Source: Candidatus Bipolaricaulota bacterium (lineage in GTDB: Bacteria > Bipolaricaulota > Bipolaricaulia > UBA7950 > UBA9294). Taken from it: 37,208 nucleotides of DNA. The notes beneath the pieces are model-generated. The model had not been told where the DNA came from. It was given only the letters and a program-made list of their open reading frames with translations, and made no database searches. A program made the translations under genes and the position numbers. Of this stretch, positions 8,073-20,933 are shown one piece after another (within the stretch, counting starts at the first letter, position 1; each line of letters starts with the position of its first letter). Location: the NCBI GenBank assembly GCA_030611415.1, contig JAUWPW010000009.1:1-37208 (forward strand), written 5' to 3'.

Positions 8073-9326
8073 GTGAAACAACGAATGTGGAGAGATGACC
8101 CTGAAAAGGTACTTCAACAGGCAGCTGACATCGTCCAGAGCGGTGCTATTTGCGATGAATGCTTCGGGCGTGCCTTCGCACAGCTGGGACACGATCTTAC
8201 AAACAGCGAACGGGGCAAGTCACTACGAATCATGCTTTGTATGCTGGGGATAGAGGGCAAGGCAGGCTCATGTTGGATCTGTAAAGGTTTCTTCAAGAAT
8301 ATCAATGCCTGGGTGAGTCGTGCCGTTGCATTATCTACTGGAATCGAGTTTGACAGTTACCTATTTGGAGTGAAGCTTACCCCAAGGCTTATCGAGATGG
8401 AGAGGTTGTTTAGTGAGAGATTCCGTACGAACTGTGCTGAGTCACTGAAACACGCGATAAATCGTATGATCGGCAAGGCATTTGAAGCGCAAGTTAGACA
8501 TGGGACACTTGATATTAGGGAACCTCATCTTTCCTTTGTAATTGACCTTGTTCGGAATACGATCGAGCTTCGGCTTCTTTCGCTATTTATTTATGGCCGG
8601 TATCAAAAACTGATACGGGGGATTCCTCAAACTCGCTGGCCCTGCCGTCACTGCAAGGGGAAAGGCTGCGATCATTGCAACTTCACCGGGAAGCAATATG
8701 ACGAATCAGTGGAAGAGCTTATAGAGAAGGAATTTCTGAACGCAGCAGGGTCAAACAGTGGGCACTTACACGGAGCTGGACGAGAGGATATAGATGCTCG
8801 TATGCTTGGGTCTGGTCGGCCTTTTGTGCTCGAGATTTGTTCGCCGCGTAGACGTAAGTTGGATCTTGTGTCGCTTCAAGCTGAGGTTAACGAGGCACAA
8901 GGAGGCAAGGTAAGAATAGGCAGGTTGAAGTTTGTTCCGCGTATGATGGTATCGAGAATTAAGGAAATACACGCAGACAAGACGTATGAGGCGCTCGTGT
9001 CATTTGAAGGCGATGTTTCTCGTGTTAGGCTAGGTCAAGCATTGGTTGAGCTTGTTGGAGAGATCGAACAGCGAACTCCGCAACGAGTTGCTCATCGCCG
9101 GGCTGACCGGATCCGTACTCGCAGGATCCATGAAATCGAAGGAGAACCAGTATCTTGTCGTCAAGCGAAGATCAGAATAAAGAGCGAGGGAGGCTTGTAC
9201 ATCAAGGAACTTGTCTCAGGTGACAATGGTCGTACAGCGCCAAGTCTGGCTAGTGGCCTTGGAATTGCTGTCCATGTTATCAAATTAGATGTAGTCGAGG
9301 TAACCTCGTCTCTGTTTCCATTTTGA
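8073..9326 (+). CDS. pus10: tRNA pseudouridine synthase Pus10 (archaeal/eukaryal type)
   Basis: CDECFGRAFAQLGHDLTNSERG, CRHCKGKGCDHCNFTGKQYDESVEELI, HGAGREDIDARMLGSGRPFVLEI (catalytic Asp), RTPQRVAHRRADRIRTRRI, GLYIKELVSGDNGRTAPSLA. Confidence 0.93.
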   Translation: MKQRMWRDDPEKVLQQAADIVQSGAICDECFGRAFAQLGHDLTNSERGKSLRIMLCMLGIEGKAGSCWICKGFFKNINAWVSRAVALSTGIEFDSYLFGVKLTPRLIEMERLFSERFRTNCAESLKHAINRMIGKAFEAQVRHGTLDIREPHLSFVIDLVRNTIELRLLSLFIYGRYQKLIRGIPQTRWPCRHCKGKGCDHCNFTGKQYDESVEELIEKEFLNAAGSNSGHLHGAGREDIDARMLGSGRPFVLEICSPRRRKLDLVSLQAEVNEAQGGKVRIGRLKFVPRMMVSRIKEIHADKTYEALVSFEGDVSRVRLGQALVELVGEIEQRTPQRVAHRRADRIRTRRIHEIEGEPVSCRQAKIRIKSEGGLYIKELVSGDNGRTAPSLASGLGIAVHVIKLDVVEVTSSLFPF

Positions 9327-9370: not shown

Positions 9371-10258
9371 GTGAGACTAATGTCAAGAACAGGAACAGAC
9401 ACCAGTTGGAATTTAGGAACAGCAGATGTTTCTCGTATCCTGCAAATCTATTACCGTGAGATATCTCGCTTCCCTCTTCTGACCGCAGAGGAGGAACGCA
9501 AACTAGCTCAGTCTATGGCCAGCGGGTTAGATGGAGCACGACAACGGTTAATCACTTCTAATCTTCGTTTGGTCGTTAAGATAGCCCAAAGGTATGCTGA
9601 TTCTGGTGTTGACCTTATTGACCTTATTCAGGAAGGCAACCTTGGCTTAATTGAGGCCATTGATCGGTTTGACGTTGAGCGGGGCTATAGGTTGAGCACA
9701 TATGCGACTTGGTGGGTCCGCCGCGCTATTCTTTCGGCAATTACTGAATACTCGCGGATGATCCGTATACCTGATTACTTGTTCCGTGCTTTGCGTCGGC
9801 TGAAACAAATCCGAGATCTGTCTCAAGGTAAAGCAGAGAAGGATGAAGAAGAGATCACGAAGATTAGCGGTTTGTCGGTGGAACGCTTGGAACAAATTGA
9901 GAGAAAATTGAGGGATCTACGTTCCTTGGATGAGCTTGTTGGAACAGGCGGTGAAGAGACACTGGAAGAGGTATTAGAAGACACAAGTACACCAGCGACA
10001 GAAAGGGAAGCCCTGCGACTTCTCTTCCGGGAAGAGCTACGCGACATCATCGACTACATTCCAGCACGACAAGCCTCTGCGCTACGTTTGCACTACGGAC
10101 TGGAAGATGGAACACCTTACACTTTGGCCGAAGTAGGTAGAATAATGGAAATAAGCCGCGAACGTGCGCGCCAACTTGTGCAAGAGGGATTAGATAAGGT
10201 TACCACAAAGTGGAGCTATCGCAGCTTGGAGTACTTCCGCAATCTGTTGCTAGACTGA
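9371..10258 (+). CDS. RNA polymerase sigma-70 family factor (group 1/2 type, no region 1.1)
   Basis: DLIQEGNLGLIEAIDRFDVERGYRLSTYATWWVRRAI; region 4 HTH LAEVGRIMEISRERARQLVQEGLDK. Confidence 0.93.
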   Translation: MRLMSRTGTDTSWNLGTADVSRILQIYYREISRFPLLTAEEERKLAQSMASGLDGARQRLITSNLRLVVKIAQRYADSGVDLIDLIQEGNLGLIEAIDRFDVERGYRLSTYATWWVRRAILSAITEYSRMIRIPDYLFRALRRLKQIRDLSQGKAEKDEEEITKISGLSVERLEQIERKLRDLRSLDELVGTGGEETLEEVLEDTSTPATEREALRLLFREELRDIIDYIPARQASALRLHYGLEDGTPYTLAEVGRIMEISRERARQLVQEGLDKVTTKWSYRSLEYFRNLLLD

Positions 10259-14046: not shown

Positions 14047-16158
14047 ATGAAAAAGCTTCTCATACTTCTGCTCGTTGTCACGAATATTTCTGTCGTTCTT
14101 GTATCATGTGCAACAGGAGATGAAGCGGTACTTCATCCGTCGCTGCGCAACATTCTCCAACAACTAGCACAAGACAAAAACATTAATCTTGCCAGATTTG
14201 TCGGCCAACTACAGGTATTGCCATCGAAACGTGCGAGGAACAGTCATGTTGATCTAGATGAAGGGCAATTCGGGGTACTGGTACAAACGCGCCGGGGGTT
14301 GTTTGGGCAAACCTTCCTTGGTATTCCTATACTTGTAAACACGGGAACGATTATCGGTATGCGCGTTAGCGCAAGAGAACTGTTGCTCTTGGCTGATTCG
14401 CCTTATGTTGCCTATATTGAGCCCTCATGGAAGGTAGAACCAAAGCTCGATTACAGCGTTCCTGCAATAAGAGCTGATCGATTACACTCAGCCATACCAC
14501 CGTTAACAGGAAAAGGGGTGATTATCGGCGCAGTAGACACAGGGATCGATTATTCTCACCTTGACTTCCGTTATGATTCAGACGGTGATGGCATCGAAGA
14601 ATCGTCTCGCATCTTGTCTATCTGGGATCAAACTAGCGGTTCTCTAGGCGCATATTACAGCAATAACGAGATCGAAAGTGATATTGCCTTTGGGCTTGGC
14701 CCAGAGAGCGGACAGGTCCATGAAGCAGACACAAACGGTCACGGGACACATCTGATGGGAATTGCGGCGGGTGATGGATCGTCGTCTGATAGCAGCCTGA
14801 TTGGAGTAGCTCCGGATGCGACCATCGTCATGGTCAAGACCTCTTTCTACACCTCGGATATTATCAGCGGGGTGAAGTATATCTTTGAACAAGCAAACAC
14901 ACTTGGTCTGCCAGCAGTGGTAAATCTGAGCTTAGGCGGACACGAAGGGCCGCACGATGGAACGAGCTTGTTTGAGCAAGGGCTATCCGAGCTAGCACAG
15001 CAGTATGGGCAGGCAATTGTTGTATCCGCGGGGAATGAAGGTGATAAGAAGATCCATGTAGGAGAGGAGCTCCACGGAGACTCTTTTACCTTTACTATCA
15101 ATCCTATTTCCCTGTCGCTTGAGCTACAGCTGTGGTATCCGGGTGAATCCAGCTTCTCACTTACTGTTACCCCACCGGTCGGCCCCTCTCTAACAGTGGA
15201 CAGAGGCAGCCACGCTAGCTCTCAGGCTGCGAATCTATACGTGGACAACGCTTCAAGTGGGACAAACCCAAATAACGGAGATAATGAGATCCTGGTATCC
15301 TTGATCGGTATCACTCCAGGAAGCAAGTGGTACTTCACCATAACTGATGAAGGCGGCGGCGGGCGGTTTGACGGATGGATTGTCACAAGCACGGGTGACA
15401 CAATTCTTGAAGGAGATACGGACTATACGATTGACGAACCAGGAAACGCATACGGTGTAATCACTGTAGGGTCATTCAACACCAAGGCATTGCACAATTT
15501 CCCTACTCAGAATGGAATTGGTGAAATCTCTTACTTTTCCAGCCAGGGACTAACTCGGGATGGGCGACAAAAACCGGAACTTACCGCCCCTGGGGCGTGG
15601 ATAGCTGCCGCTCTATCCAGTAACAGTTCTAGGGAAGGTCTGCCTGACCCTACGCATACCTTGCTTAGGGGAACCAGTGTTTCCGCTGCCCATGTGAGCG
15701 GGGTGATAGCATTGATGCTTTCGTGCAATTCAGAGTTAAGTAGCGAAGAGATGAAAATGAGACTAACACAGACTTCTATGAGTGACGCATTTACTGGGTT
15801 CACCCCTAACACTAGTTGGGGATATGGAAAGGCAAATGCCTACGAAGCGGTCGCCGCCATACGCCATCCCGGGGGAAGCGAAGCACATTCTCCCGCAGTG
15901 ACAGTGCTAAGTAATCCTGTCAGCAACCGTGCTTTATTTAGTTACACGCTCCCCAAAGGAACAACACAGGCAACGCTACAAGTCTATAATGTTGCAGGAG
16001 CATTGCTTTTCCAAGAAGAGATTGACCCAGAACACAACCAATATGAATGGAATCTTACTGGCAACTTAGGCAAACTACTGGCGAATGGACTCTACTTGTA
16101 TACGATTATCGCTGGGAATCACTGCTCGGAAGTAGGGCAATTGGTGATCATCAGATGA
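14047..16158 (+). CDS. Subtilisin-family (S8) serine protease, probable lipoprotein, with C-terminal T9SS/FlgD-Ig-like sorting domain
   Basis: Lipobox LVSC; triad GAVDTGID, NGHGTHLMG, GTSVSAAHVSG; C-term VLSNPVSNRALFSYTLPKGTTQATLQVYNVAGALLFQ...NGLYLYTIIAG...GQLVIIR. Confidence 0.9.
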   Translation: MKKLLILLLVVTNISVVLVSCATGDEAVLHPSLRNILQQLAQDKNINLARFVGQLQVLPSKRARNSHVDLDEGQFGVLVQTRRGLFGQTFLGIPILVNTGTIIGMRVSARELLLLADSPYVAYIEPSWKVEPKLDYSVPAIRADRLHSAIPPLTGKGVIIGAVDTGIDYSHLDFRYDSDGDGIEESSRILSIWDQTSGSLGAYYSNNEIESDIAFGLGPESGQVHEADTNGHGTHLMGIAAGDGSSSDSSLIGVAPDATIVMVKTSFYTSDIISGVKYIFEQANTLGLPAVVNLSLGGHEGPHDGTSLFEQGLSELAQQYGQAIVVSAGNEGDKKIHVGEELHGDSFTFTINPISLSLELQLWYPGESSFSLTVTPPVGPSLTVDRGSHASSQAANLYVDNASSGTNPNNGDNEILVSLIGITPGSKWYFTITDEGGGGRFDGWIVTSTGDTILEGDTDYTIDEPGNAYGVITVGSFNTKALHNFPTQNGIGEISYFSSQGLTRDGRQKPELTAPGAWIAAALSSNSSREGLPDPTHTLLRGTSVSAAHVSGVIALMLSCNSELSSEEMKMRLTQTSMSDAFTGFTPNTSWGYGKANAYEAVAAIRHPGGSEAHSPAVTVLSNPVSNRALFSYTLPKGTTQATLQVYNVAGALLFQEEIDPEHNQYEWNLTGNLGKLLANGLYLYTIIAGNHCSEVGQLVIIR

Positions 16159-17006
16159 TTTCGCGGCGAATACTATTGGTAGTACTCTTTGTCTTGTTTC
16201 TTGTCACAATAATGGTGCATGGAGACGATTTTGCTAACGTCGCGGCAATCTTCGAATTGGCAACAGGCACACGTTCCATAGGAATGAGTAAGACCCTTAT
16301 CGCCCTAGCGGACGATGAGAATGCCATCTTTTGTAATCCAGCAGGCCTAGGCAGTGTCAAGGATATTCGCTTCACTTCCTTATTCTCGCGACCGTTTGGA
16401 GCCTTCAGCTATGGAGCAATCGGCATCGCTGTTCCTCATCTAGGAATACTGGGAATGCAGTTGGATTCGGGATTGATCACAACAGAAGGAGGGGCTTTTC
16501 GTTACCTAAGCCAGGCGGCAGCCATCTCGGTCGGTGTAGCAATTGGTGGCTTTAGCCTAGGTGGACGAGTAAAGTTCTATCATCTTTCACAGCCCTTGTC
16601 GGGAACAGGTTGGGCGATTGATCCCGCTTGTCTCATTACGATCAATCGTGTGAAAATTGGCGTTATTGTGGAGAACCTTATTTCAGGACAGATTTCTTTT
16701 GAGAACGGTCATAATGAACATTGGCCCACTAAGATTGACATTGGAGCTGCCTTGACCATGCAGCCGTTCCTTACAGCCTATTGGAACTTGGCAGCGAGTA
16801 TTGCAGGGATCTTCACTGCCAACCCGCGGATAGCAGGAGGGGTTGAGGTATGGGTGAAAGACCTTGCCGCAAGGATTGGCTATAGCAAGAGCCAAGCCAC
16901 AATTGGCCTAACGCTGCGTTTTGAAACTTATCAAGTCGATTGGGCTTACGTTTTACACGCGGATCTTCCTGATAGTCACTATCTGTCTCTCACATTCAGG
17001 TTCTAG
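16155..17006 (+). CDS. PorV/PorQ-like outer-membrane barrel protein
   Basis: GTRSIGMSKTLIALADDENAIFCNPAGLG; C-terminal LSLTFRF; start MISRRILLVV overlaps the upstream stop (ATGA). Confidence 0.75.
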   Translation: MISRRILLVVLFVLFLVTIMVHGDDFANVAAIFELATGTRSIGMSKTLIALADDENAIFCNPAGLGSVKDIRFTSLFSRPFGAFSYGAIGIAVPHLGILGMQLDSGLITTEGGAFRYLSQAAAISVGVAIGGFSLGGRVKFYHLSQPLSGTGWAIDPACLITINRVKIGVIVENLISGQISFENGHNEHWPTKIDIGAALTMQPFLTAYWNLAASIAGIFTANPRIAGGVEVWVKDLAARIGYSKSQATIGLTLRFETYQVDWAYVLHADLPDSHYLSLTFRF

Positions 17007-17015
17007 AAGGAGAAA

Positions 17016-20000
17016 GTGAAACTGCTGCGCTATTTGGTGATCGTTACATTGCTTGTAATTGGGGTTTCCTTGCTGTCTCAGGGAGAGGAGGAAGCCTTCA
17101 AGGCTGACATCACTGGTGAGAAGACCTGGTGCCTACGCTATGGTTTCGGCTCCCCACAGGGATTAGCCCAGGCTGGCATGGCTCCGAATCAGCTATATCT
17201 TGATCAGTCACTTGCTGTAAACATCACAGGGAAAGCGCTTTCCTTCCTTACAATCAATGCTCAATTTGACGATCAGAAACCTATGAACATGCAATCGCTG
17301 ACAATTGATCTAGACGCTGGTGACCTGCGGGGCAAATTCGGCGATTTCCCTATCGCTGAGCAGGACACTTTTCTGGCTTATAACAAAGAGCTCAAAGGAA
17401 TGCGCCTAGATTATCAGATCGGCAAGGCACAACTAACCGGCATCGTCTCTCAAGTTGAAGGGATCTCAGAATCAAAGACATTTGTTGGTCGGACAGCGCA
17501 TGAGGAGGTGATTTTCTCTTCGTATTCCCCTGAACAGCCGTGGGTTAAACAGACGTACTTGCTCAACCTTCAAGGGCTGTACTATTTTGAGCTGGAAGAA
17601 CCTTTCATTGAAGGGTTCTCTATTGCGAGCATTAACTTAGTAGCGAATCAAGCCTTGCACTCCCTTCTTAGTGCCTACGGACTTGGCTATCTATTTGAAG
17701 ACATCACTAAGTCTCCATCCCAGGACCTTTCCAAGGCAAGTTATGCTGTTGTCAGCAAAGAACGAGACTTCCTTATCGTGAAAAGCGAGCCGCAAGCCCT
17801 CTTGCGAACGTGGCTACTGAAGTACATCAGACAGTACAACGAACAGACAGAGCTTAGTGATTCAGAAGAGAAACGCTATCCATTCAATATTGGAACCGAT
17901 TATGAACAAGCCTTTCTCAACCAACTTATGTCTTTTTGTTATCTGGGAGTTGAGGGAAGTGAATATCCGCTTCTAACAGGGAAACAGCAACGTTTCTATT
18001 ATCTCGGCCACGCTGATCTGAAAGAGGGATCAATCGTGGTAGAAGTGAGCTTGCATGGCGGGACATTTCTGCCGATCACTGAGGCTGATCTTCCCGAATA
18101 TGATGCATACCCATTTCTTAGTGAGGGAATCATCGAATTTGATTTCCCCAAACAGTTCTTTCAAGAAACGGGGAGCGCAGCAAGAGTCTCATTTGACTAT
18201 GCCGTGTCCGGGGATGTATTCATGCTTGGCCTATCCATTGTGCAAGGAAGCGAAAAGGTCTACTTAAATGGAGAACTCCTCGAGCGTGACATGGATTACT
18301 CTATTGACTACGAACTTGGCATGCTGATATTGTTCCGTGAAGTAGGCGAGGAAGATACGATCCGAATTGATTACGAACGTTTCCGTGGTGGTCTAGGCAG
18401 TGGTGCTGAGTATTCACGTAACTTCTACGGGTTGAGCCTTGACCTTCCCGCCACTGAGTCGCTTAACTTCAAATTGAGCCTACTACAAGCCGCTGACAAC
18501 CCTACCCCACTCAGCGATCCCGCAAAGGCTCATACTATGCCAAACACTCATACTATTTCGGGTGTGATTGGAGCAATTGACTTGGATGGCTTTCGCGCTA
18601 AGGTTGCGCTTGGATATAGCAATGATTGTTTCCCATTTGATGACAATCTGCGAGAAAATCTTCCCAATCTGGTAACTACGATCTTGGTCCTTGCTCAATA
18701 TACCCTTGTTGGCAACTTGAATGGGATTAGCGTGTATAACAACGGCGTCTGGAGAAGCTATACCACTGGGGCTGGTCTTTGCGGAAATCGAGTTCGCAGC
18801 ATGGTAAGCGATGGAAACACTGTGTTTATTGGTACGGACTCAGGGCTTACAGTACTTCATCTGAAAGGAGTATCTCCACTAGCCCACGTAGAGAACTGGC
18901 AGCGCTTTTACGAAAAAGATGGCCTACCAGATCCAGAAGTACGCGCGCTTGCACTTGTCGGCGAAAGCCTGTGGATCGGAACCACAGGTGGTCTAGCGCG
19001 AGTCAAGCCAGAAGAAATCGAAAGTGCTGAGGCCTGGAAGTCGTACACCCCTGATGTATTTCCAGAAATGAAAGGGATTCTCGCGCTTGCTGGAGATAAC
19101 ACCACCCTATATATCGGCACAGATCACGGTCTGTTTGCCTTTGACATAGCAAAGGAAGAAATGAGCGAACTTCACGGCATGAGTGGCGTTGCAGTGGGGA
19201 ATTTGGTCTTGGTCGATGGAACCCTGTACGCTAGCTCAGAGATTGGACTTCGTTCTTTTCATAAGGGAATAGGATGCGGCTGGCTTGTATTTGGCAGAGC
19301 AGTTCGGGCCAGTGCCATAGTCAATGGGAGTACATGGTACGCAACCGATGACGGTCTCTACCGTATCTCGGACCAGGAACCGTTCATCGATGATTGGGCG
19401 ATAACCGTACTGTCTGGCTCAGCAGTCGGGGGTTTATGGATAGGAAGCCGCGCAAATTCTAGCTATCAATTAAACGTGTGGCGAGCCGATAGTAAGCTGG
19501 AAACATTCACCAATTACGTAATGGGAATCGATGGGCGCGACAAGACCAGGTTTAGAGATATCTCGTCAGACGAGCACACAGACCGGGGGTTGTTCGCCAG
19601 AGCAAGTTTTAACCGCGACGTAGGCGTATTCAAGATCTCCGGAGACTTCGAGAGCATCGCTCCAGGTTTCTCATCCATAGGGCGCCTAGACCGCCGCGAT
19701 GTAACCGGTTGGAATATTTCAGTAGCTGGCGCCTTGGCACAAGGGATCAATATCGTTGCTTCCCATGGTTATCATATGATTAACCAGAGAAGCGAGGAGA
19801 AAAGAGACATCATGGATAATCAACTATCCTTTGCATGGCAGTTTGGTCCCTTGTTCAGCTTTTCCCTGAGAAACGAAATGGTAGATGATAATTGGTTACA
19901 CAGGGGACCTGATAGCACAGCTACTTCTTACAGCATTGGCCTGCAAAACGAATTCCTTGACCACGATCTTTCACTGGCTGTAGCTTGGAATGACGCGTTT

Positions 20001-20933
20001 GAGACAGCTATTTCCCATGAGCATTACTGGCGGGAGAGCGGACTTAGTTTTACGGGAACCTACCAGATAATCTCTGGATTCTCGATCTCGGGAAGCTGGG
20101 AATATCCGCTGATCTTTGATGCGAGCAGCACCCAGAGAAGCGAGAAAAGAAACCTCTCCATTAGTCTGTCCCGTAGCCTTGCCGCGGCTAACATAAGTGG
20201 AAAGTATGAACTGTTTACTAGTCGCTTCCTGCCTGATGGGAGTCTTTCTACGATTCATACCGCGTCTATTGACCTCCGCTTCAGCGAGTTCGCTCTTCTT
20301 GGTCTAGGATTTGTGCCCACATTGAACCTTGGTTTTGAGGCAAAGGAAGGGACTGTCGCCTGGGATGGACGAGCGAATGTACGCGTAAAGCTAAATGCAG
20401 TCTTTGCTCAAGTTACCTATCAGAAGAAGATGCTACAAGTTCAGGAAGAGCAGTCGCAACACGACGATCGCTTTCTCCTAAGCCTCGGGTATACAGGTAC
20501 TCCATACCTCAGGCCGAGCATTTCATATACTAGACGTACCAGCGTTGTTGCTTACAAGGAGGAAATACGTTCTGTTGTGGACCATGTTCTTAGTGGGCGG
20601 CTTTCGTGGGCGCCACAAGGGAGCTACCGCAATGATCTTTCCTTAGTGGTTAGGGCCGATGACAGTGATGAAATCACCGTTTCTGTACAGAACGATTTTT
20701 CCTACATCGTTTCCCAGCACATTTCCGCACGGTTTAACATTGATGGAAGCTACAAGATTGTTGGGGCTACGACTGGGAACGATCTTAGCCTTACGCTTGG
20801 CGGAACTGTTAACTACAGACTTTCCGATTCTTGGCGTGGGTCGCTTGCTATTTCCTACATCGCAGGAGAGACGGATACAACCACGCTCTATCACAGCACG
20901 TTGTTTGAGCTTTTCATCGCAGCAAAGTTCTAG
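17016..20933 (+). CDS. Very large outer-membrane protein: SprA-like strands, central two-component-regulator-type beta-propeller, C-terminal barrel
   Basis: VYLNGELLERDMDYSIDYELGMLILF; propeller repeats GTDSGLTVL, IGTTGGLARV, IGTDHGLFAF; C-terminal Phe (FIAAKF); preceded by AGAAGGAG. Confidence 0.75.
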   Translation: MKLLRYLVIVTLLVIGVSLLSQGEEEAFKADITGEKTWCLRYGFGSPQGLAQAGMAPNQLYLDQSLAVNITGKALSFLTINAQFDDQKPMNMQSLTIDLDAGDLRGKFGDFPIAEQDTFLAYNKELKGMRLDYQIGKAQLTGIVSQVEGISESKTFVGRTAHEEVIFSSYSPEQPWVKQTYLLNLQGLYYFELEEPFIEGFSIASINLVANQALHSLLSAYGLGYLFEDITKSPSQDLSKASYAVVSKERDFLIVKSEPQALLRTWLLKYIRQYNEQTELSDSEEKRYPFNIGTDYEQAFLNQLMSFCYLGVEGSEYPLLTGKQQRFYYLGHADLKEGSIVVEVSLHGGTFLPITEADLPEYDAYPFLSEGIIEFDFPKQFFQETGSAARVSFDYAVSGDVFMLGLSIVQGSEKVYLNGELLERDMDYSIDYELGMLILFREVGEEDTIRIDYERFRGGLGSGAEYSRNFYGLSLDLPATESLNFKLSLLQAADNPTPLSDPAKAHTMPNTHTISGVIGAIDLDGFRAKVALGYSNDCFPFDDNLRENLPNLVTTILVLAQYTLVGNLNGISVYNNGVWRSYTTGAGLCGNRVRSMVSDGNTVFIGTDSGLTVLHLKGVSPLAHVENWQRFYEKDGLPDPEVRALALVGESLWIGTTGGLARVKPEEIESAEAWKSYTPDVFPEMKGILALAGDNTTLYIGTDHGLFAFDIAKEEMSELHGMSGVAVGNLVLVDGTLYASSEIGLRSFHKGIGCGWLVFGRAVRASAIVNGSTWYATDDGLYRISDQEPFIDDWAITVLSGSAVGGLWIGSRANSSYQLNVWRADSKLETFTNYVMGIDGRDKTRFRDISSDEHTDRGLFARASFNRDVGVFKISGDFESIAPGFSSIGRLDRRDVTGWNISVAGALAQGINIVASHGYHMINQRSEEKRDIMDNQLSFAWQFGPLFSFSLRNEMVDDNWLHRGPDSTATSYSIGLQNEFLDHDLSLAVAWNDAFETAISHEHYWRESGLSFTGTYQIISGFSISGSWEYPLIFDASSTQRSEKRNLSISLSRSLAAANISGKYELFTSRFLPDGSLSTIHTASIDLRFSEFALLGLGFVPTLNLGFEAKEGTVAWDGRANVRVKLNAVFAQVTYQKKMLQVQEEQSQHDDRFLLSLGYTGTPYLRPSISYTRRTSVVAYKEEIRSVVDHVLSGRLSWAPQGSYRNDLSLVVRADDSDEITVSVQNDFSYIVSQHISARFNIDGSYKIVGATTGNDLSLTLGGTVNYRLSDSWRGSLAISYIAGETDTTTLYHSTLFELFIAAKF

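Follow-up and report, generated by a model that had tools for sequence, protein, structure and literature searches.

Bacteria of the phylum Bipolaricaulota (formerly Acetothermia/OP1) appear to have dropped TruB, which in bacteria normally makes a near-universal tRNA mark, and to use an archaeal Pus10 in its place, usually together with the archaeal partner of that enzyme, TrmY. Few marks in bacterial tRNA are as conserved as Ψ55 and m5U54. With a probability of about 0.85, we hold that Pus10 has replaced TruB, that TrmY makes m1Ψ54 in most Bipolaricaulota, that one genus (g20) has reverted to m5U54 via TrmFO and that the Pus10–TrmY pair is archaeal in origin. Reviews place Pus10 outside the Bacteria (PMC7912444) and in archaea and higher eukaryotes only (PMC9957541). 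No report of a bacterial Pus10, or of pseudouridine in connection with Bipolaricaulota, was found in the open-access literature; an earlier mention is possible, since TIGR01213 would already name such proteins in databases.

A full-length Pus10 in a bacterial contig

The window, the whole stretch of DNA analysed here, comprises 37,208 nucleotides of a Candidatus Bipolaricaulota genome (contig JAUWPW010000009.1 of assembly GCA_030611415.1; C52 in our numbering). The pus10 gene (8073..9326, plus strand) is an uninterrupted ORF of 417 amino acids that begins with GTG, an in-frame ATG further on, at 8085, being a possible alternative start. Its product is a full-length Pus10. The NCBIfam equivalog model TIGR01213 [tRNA pseudouridine(54/55) synthase Pus10] matches it with 477.6 bits (cut-off 200, E = 2.7e-143), the alignment spanning profile positions 2–401 of 402, and Pfam identifies Pus10_C (227 bits) and Pus10_THUMP_arc (56 bits). 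The N-terminal accessory domain is present, with a THUMP domain at residues 80–158 (8310..8546, plus strand; PF22023, E = 4.2e-15) and two cysteine pairs, C27/C30 and C67/C70 (8151..8282, plus strand), that form a putative metal site. These cysteines are kept in all Bipolaricaulota rows covering those positions and in 63 archaeal loci. The motif WPCRHCKGKGCDHCNFTGK (residues 189–207) lies within a loop, P185–Y209 (8625..8699, plus strand), which carries the Cys knuckle (PQTRWPCRHCKGKGCDHCNFTGKQY). The catalytic motif HGAGREDIDARMLG occupies residues 233–246 (8769..8810, plus strand), with the catalytic aspartate D239 encoded at 8787–8789; HGxGRED is invariant in our alignment (A1), and E238 and D239 occur in all rows covering them. 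A further motif, GGLYIKELVSGDNGRTAPS (residues 373–391; 9189..9245, plus strand), is conserved in the same alignment and in archaea. D239 of the GREDxD motif, Y376 and K378 are conserved in Bipolaricaulota and archaea. The initial annotation had read the ORF as Pus10 with all hallmarks in place; every motif that it quoted was found, and the HMM search assigns the protein to the Pus10 family.

The structural comparison agrees with this assignment. The closest solved structure by sequence is human PUS10 (PDB: 2v9k, E = 2.3e-33), and an AlphaFold (AF2) model built on relatives (mean pLDDT 92.4) also has 2v9k as its top PDB match (E = 4e-33, TM 0.78), followed by TruA, Cbf5 and TruB with E values of 9e-10 at best. 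The protein contains no PF01509 (TruB_N) and does not belong to the TruB/Cbf5 family. Judged by its family and motifs, it is predicted to be a Ψ55 (and Ψ54) synthase acting on tRNA, in which Asp239 would catalyse the isomerization and the THUMP-containing N-terminal domain would bind the tRNA. A parse of T-loops finds U54U55 in 34 of the 35 distinct source-genome tRNAs recovered in the fetched loci; a predicted substrate in the window itself is tRNA-Val(CAC) (31990..32064, plus strand; ARAGORN), the T-loop of which, TTCGAGC, contains U54–U55. The tRNA-Thr(CGT) of the source genome has the one parsed T-loop not starting with TTC (GTCGGAT), and may lack U54; the tRNA could be unusual or its T-loop wrongly parsed.

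Elsewhere in the window (14047–20933) a subtilase with a weak match to a T9SS-type sorting domain is followed by a PorV-like ORF (319 amino acids) and a weakly SprA-like ORF (1305 amino acids), which may be components of something like type IX secretion in Bipolaricaulota.

T-loop enzymes across the phylum

In a sample of 100 Bipolaricaulota genomes (39 genera, nine families) Pus10 is found in 89, of which 87 exceed the curated cut-off; among the 38 genomes of best quality, 37 have it. It is a phylum-wide trait and not an isolated recent transfer. TrmY is carried by nine of the 11 genomes with no Pus10 match, so gaps in the assemblies are a likelier cause than true loss. The Pus10 search gave no match in the bacterial control genomes, Thermotoga and Deinococcota among them. 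A scan of viral contigs gave no Pus10; the plasmids scanned yielded one distant copy from Natronococcus (27% identity). The record Thermotoga sp. BE2012_65_8 (L066, DYGJ01000072.1) was considered as a second bacterial phylum and rejected, as its Pus10 nests in family f3 and the record is a misnamed Bipolaricaulota.

The initial annotation had singled out truB as the gene to look for, and TruB_N (PF01509) was found neither in the source genome nor in any other of the 100, while the same search matched 14 of 14 control genomes, archaeal ones included. RluA-type pseudouridine synthases (PF00849) are seen in 98 of the 100 genomes, so the absence of TruB does not reflect a general blindness to pseudouridine synthases. 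TruA (PF01416) had been intended as the positive control, and PF00849 was taken instead when TruA itself appeared to be missing. TIGR00071 exceeds its cut-off in 0 of the 100 genomes, source genome included, and PF01416 gives only three weak matches, within ORFs of about 1060 amino acids; the TruA models have imperfect sensitivity, matching 12 of 14 control genomes. TruA, the Ψ38–40 synthase, appears to be missing from the whole phylum too, and so nearly complete an absence is striking.

TrmY N1-methylates Ψ54, and Pus10 must act before it (PMC9508554). TrmY (PF04013) occurs in 82 of the 100 genomes, including the source genome, and among the control genomes PF04013 matches archaea only. The source-genome trmY (contig C69, 8707–9270; locus L151, 1708–2532) exceeds the cut-offs of both the TrmY equivalog NF002560 (202.1 against 183 bits) and PF04013 (162 against 25.5 bits). 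Among solved structures, its closest relatives come from archaea (MJ1640, 1.8e-34; AF1056, 5e-32), and the Vibrio homologue VCA1059 is far weaker (4e-10). Family, phylogeny and co-occurrence suggest that this protein would act after Pus10 as an m1Ψ54 methyltransferase. It also has a C-terminal extension of ~85 amino acids, which matches a small separate ORF beside trmY in other families (L116, L118) and is apparently a fusion. The bacterial 54-methylases are missing from the sample except for TrmFO in one genus: no TrmA/RlmD/TrmU54-type methylase exceeds its cut-off in any of the 100 genomes. A search for Trm56, which in archaea also acts on the T-loop, gave 0 of 100, so the archaeal import is, as far as tested, limited to positions 54–55.

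True TrmFO, over cut-off, occurs in seven genomes, all from genus g20 of family f3, and TrmY was not found in that genus. The two enzymes never occur together (TrmY in 0 of 7 TrmFO genomes vs. 82 of the 93 others; Fisher p = 2e-6, corresponding to one event on the tree). Weak TIGR00137 matches outside g20 were rejected as TrmFO because they lie far below the cut-off, and most, around profile positions 260–390, resemble MnmG relatives. A tally of residues by TrmY/TrmFO status shows that the 185–209 loop of Pus10 is remodelled in all seven g20 proteins (P185 to A, P190 to T, R192 to P, Y209 to A or S), whereas P185, R192 and Y209 are conserved in nearly all Pus10 proteins outside g20; Y209 is retained in 72 of 72 TrmY-bearing rows, 5 of 5 from family f4 and 62 of 63 archaeal loci. 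The co-variation of TrmFO, TrmY and Pus10 is a single evolutionary event in one genus. Mutagenesis of M. jannaschii Pus10 by Joardar in 2013 reportedly identified forefinger Arg and Tyr determinants, which we do not equate with the 185–209 loop. The N-terminal cysteines, named in a review as important for Ψ54 (PMC9957541), are retained in g20. In Pyrococcus furiosus Pus10 makes Ψ55 only and U54 is methylated to m5U54 (PMC7912444); by analogy, we infer that g20 Pus10 is limited to Ψ55, with TrmFO as the source of m5U54 in this genus.

Family f4 (G041–G046; L130–L134) has a Pus10 that keeps Y209, and TrmY, TrmFO and TrmA were not found in it; position 54 may be plain Ψ54 in this family. The Cys knuckle is deleted in one f4 protein (L134, genome G046). 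The sole archaeal Pus10 in the set with a changed Y209 (to S) is that of Methanosarcinales archaeon UWMA-0233 (L052, 1200–2420), which shows no trmY within the 1.2 kb of upstream sequence at hand and could be an independent Ψ55-only case.

Origin of the enzyme pair and alternative readings

In the Pus10 tree, Bipolaricaulota and archaea fall on the two sides of one branch (97/91), and families f1, f3, f4, f6 and f8 are each recovered. The tree thus follows the families of the phylum, which is most simply explained by a single gain in the phylum ancestor and vertical descent thereafter. The archaeal proteins in this tree are the best 80 of at least 596 matches, almost only from Halobacteriota, a sampling that leaves the donor and the root of Pus10 unsettled; rooting on the human C-terminal domain was dropped, since that domain attached by a long branch close to family f4. 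The TrmY tree, rooted on M. jannaschii and with its archaeal sequences taken from loci where trmY adjoins pus10 plus two solved structures, places a Bipolaricaulota clade (100/96) inside Halobacteriota, beside Methanomicrobiales (98/93). The gene immediately upstream of pus10, in the same orientation and at a distance of −33 to +415 bp, is trmY in 33 of the 63 archaeal loci. Neither in the source genome nor in other Bipolaricaulota do the two genes adjoin, the closest approach being 13–14 kb in two genomes of family f9. The simplest reading is that an adjacent trmY–pus10 pair was jointly acquired from a methanogen-related archaeon, the direction and time of transfer being deduced from these trees and gene orders. 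Horizontal acquisition had been proposed in the initial annotation, and transfer from archaea stays the best reading.

Most of the genomes were assembled from metagenomes, and archaea live in such habitats as well, so that archaeal contigs might have been binned with bacterial ones. The gene context contradicts this. The source genome (1.33 Mb, 93% complete, 0.14% contamination) has a sigma-70 family factor gene (9371..10258, plus strand; Pfam Sigma70 regions 1.2, 2 and 4) 44 bp downstream of pus10 on the same strand, which belongs to the context and not to the system. It is a conserved pus10 neighbour in family f1 (neighbour cluster 1, 11 loci), where independent genomes have this sigma-70 gene after pus10 and ligA farther along. 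The remaining identified genes of the window are bacterial, and the GC content of pus10 (0.47–0.48) matches that of the contig, which is uniform. Pus10 and TrmY also occur together, with TruB not found, in G004 (96% complete) and G005 (99%), each of them a genome in a single contig; the Bipolaricaulota Pus10 proteins form a clade of their own, apart from archaea; and a Pus10 that is 82% identical (L032) occurs in another assembly titled Bipolaricaulota. Contamination is refuted by the family f1 synteny and the single-contig genomes, and the initial annotation was right to describe a Pus10 gene with bacterial flanks (sigma-70, ligA) in a bacterial genome and to doubt contamination: the contig is not chimeric at pus10. 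It is also very improbable that Pus10 and TrmY are relics from before the archaeal–bacterial split that other bacteria lost, or that archaea obtained them from Bipolaricaulota. With respect to other archaeal phyla the Pus10 tree has no root, and the human outgroup lands near family f4 through a long branch, which would leave room for either history, but no bacterial control genome has Pus10, the rooted TrmY tree sets Bipolaricaulota within Halobacteriota, and Pus10 is described from a wide range of archaea (PMC7912444).

A less radical reading, which we consider unlikely although less so than a relic or a reverse transfer, is that Pus10 is a plain substitute for TruB that makes Ψ55 only, the TrmY homologue methylating something else, as is assumed for other bacterial COG1901 proteins. 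The Ψ55-only Pus10 of P. furiosus offers a precedent (PMC7912444), the COG1901 proteins of bacteria appear in the literature as an unknown methylase (PMC5041015) and the two genes are not neighbours in the source genome. Against it, the source-genome TrmY scores above the equivalog cut-off and groups within the archaeal TrmY proteins, m5U54 enzymes are missing wherever TrmY is present, and it is precisely the genus with TrmFO and an altered Pus10 loop that lacks TrmY.

The preferred reading, replacement of TruB by an archaeal Pus10 working with TrmY, can be set out as follows. Pus10 would have taken over the conversion of U55 to Ψ in the tRNA T-loop and, in most of the phylum, would also isomerize U54. 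TrmY, an archaeal SPOUT methylase encoded elsewhere in the genome, would then N1-methylate Ψ54, giving m1Ψ54–Ψ55 instead of the bacterial m5U54–Ψ55. The pair most likely came, before the phylum diversified, from archaea with adjacent trmY–pus10, and truB would have been lost afterwards. In g20, trmY would have been lost, TrmFO gained and the Pus10 loop altered. The predicted outcome is m1Ψ54–Ψ55 tRNA in most Bipolaricaulota and m5U54–Ψ55 in the TrmFO genus. The whole history, in which archaeal elbow chemistry (m1Ψ54–Ψ55) reached the phylum ancestor from methanogen-related archaea through Pus10–TrmY, TruB and m5U54 were lost, and one genus went back to m5U54 by TrmFO with its Pus10 remodelled to Ψ55 only, seems to us reasonably probable, with clearly less assurance than the reading given at the outset.

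If true, this phylum-wide swap to an archaeal enzyme pair would mean that a core element of tRNA maturation is exchangeable across domains. The reading clearly predicts m1Ψ54 in bacterial tRNA, a pattern not known in bacteria. The TrmFO genus would be a natural experiment on the Ψ54 versus Ψ55 specificity of Pus10, and the phylum as a whole bears on the dispensability of TruB, including its proposed role in tRNA folding.

Comparison with known T-loop systems

The window protein resembles archaeal Pus10 (COG1258, TIGR01213; for example those of M. jannaschii and P. furiosus) in its full-length equivalog match, THUMP domain, Cys pairs, Cys knuckle and catalytic motif, and is 40–47% identical to the closest archaeal proteins among the best 80 of at least 596 matches. 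Unlike them, the Bipolaricaulota proteins form their own clade in a bacterial phylum without detected TruB/Cbf5, the source-genome gene is not beside trmY, and one genus has a remodelled loop. The source-genome TrmY is likewise similar to archaeal TrmY (COG1901/DUF358, the tRNA Ψ54 N1-methyltransferase) in its equivalog match, in having MJ1640 as best solved relative and in nesting within the archaeal proteins, and differs in its bacterial host, its C-terminal extension and a gene not adjacent to pus10. With TruB (COG0130), the usual bacterial Ψ55 synthase, Pus10 shares the predicted product, Ψ55, but belongs to a different pseudouridine synthase family. The P. furiosus T-loop system combines an m5U54 methylase with a Ψ55-limited Pus10 (PMC7912444). 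Genus g20 differs from it in being bacterial, in using the folate-dependent TrmFO rather than a RumA-type methylase and in that its Ψ55-only specificity is predicted; with an m5U54 enzyme present, TrmY absent and Pus10 altered, it looks like an independent equivalent of the Pyrococcus arrangement.
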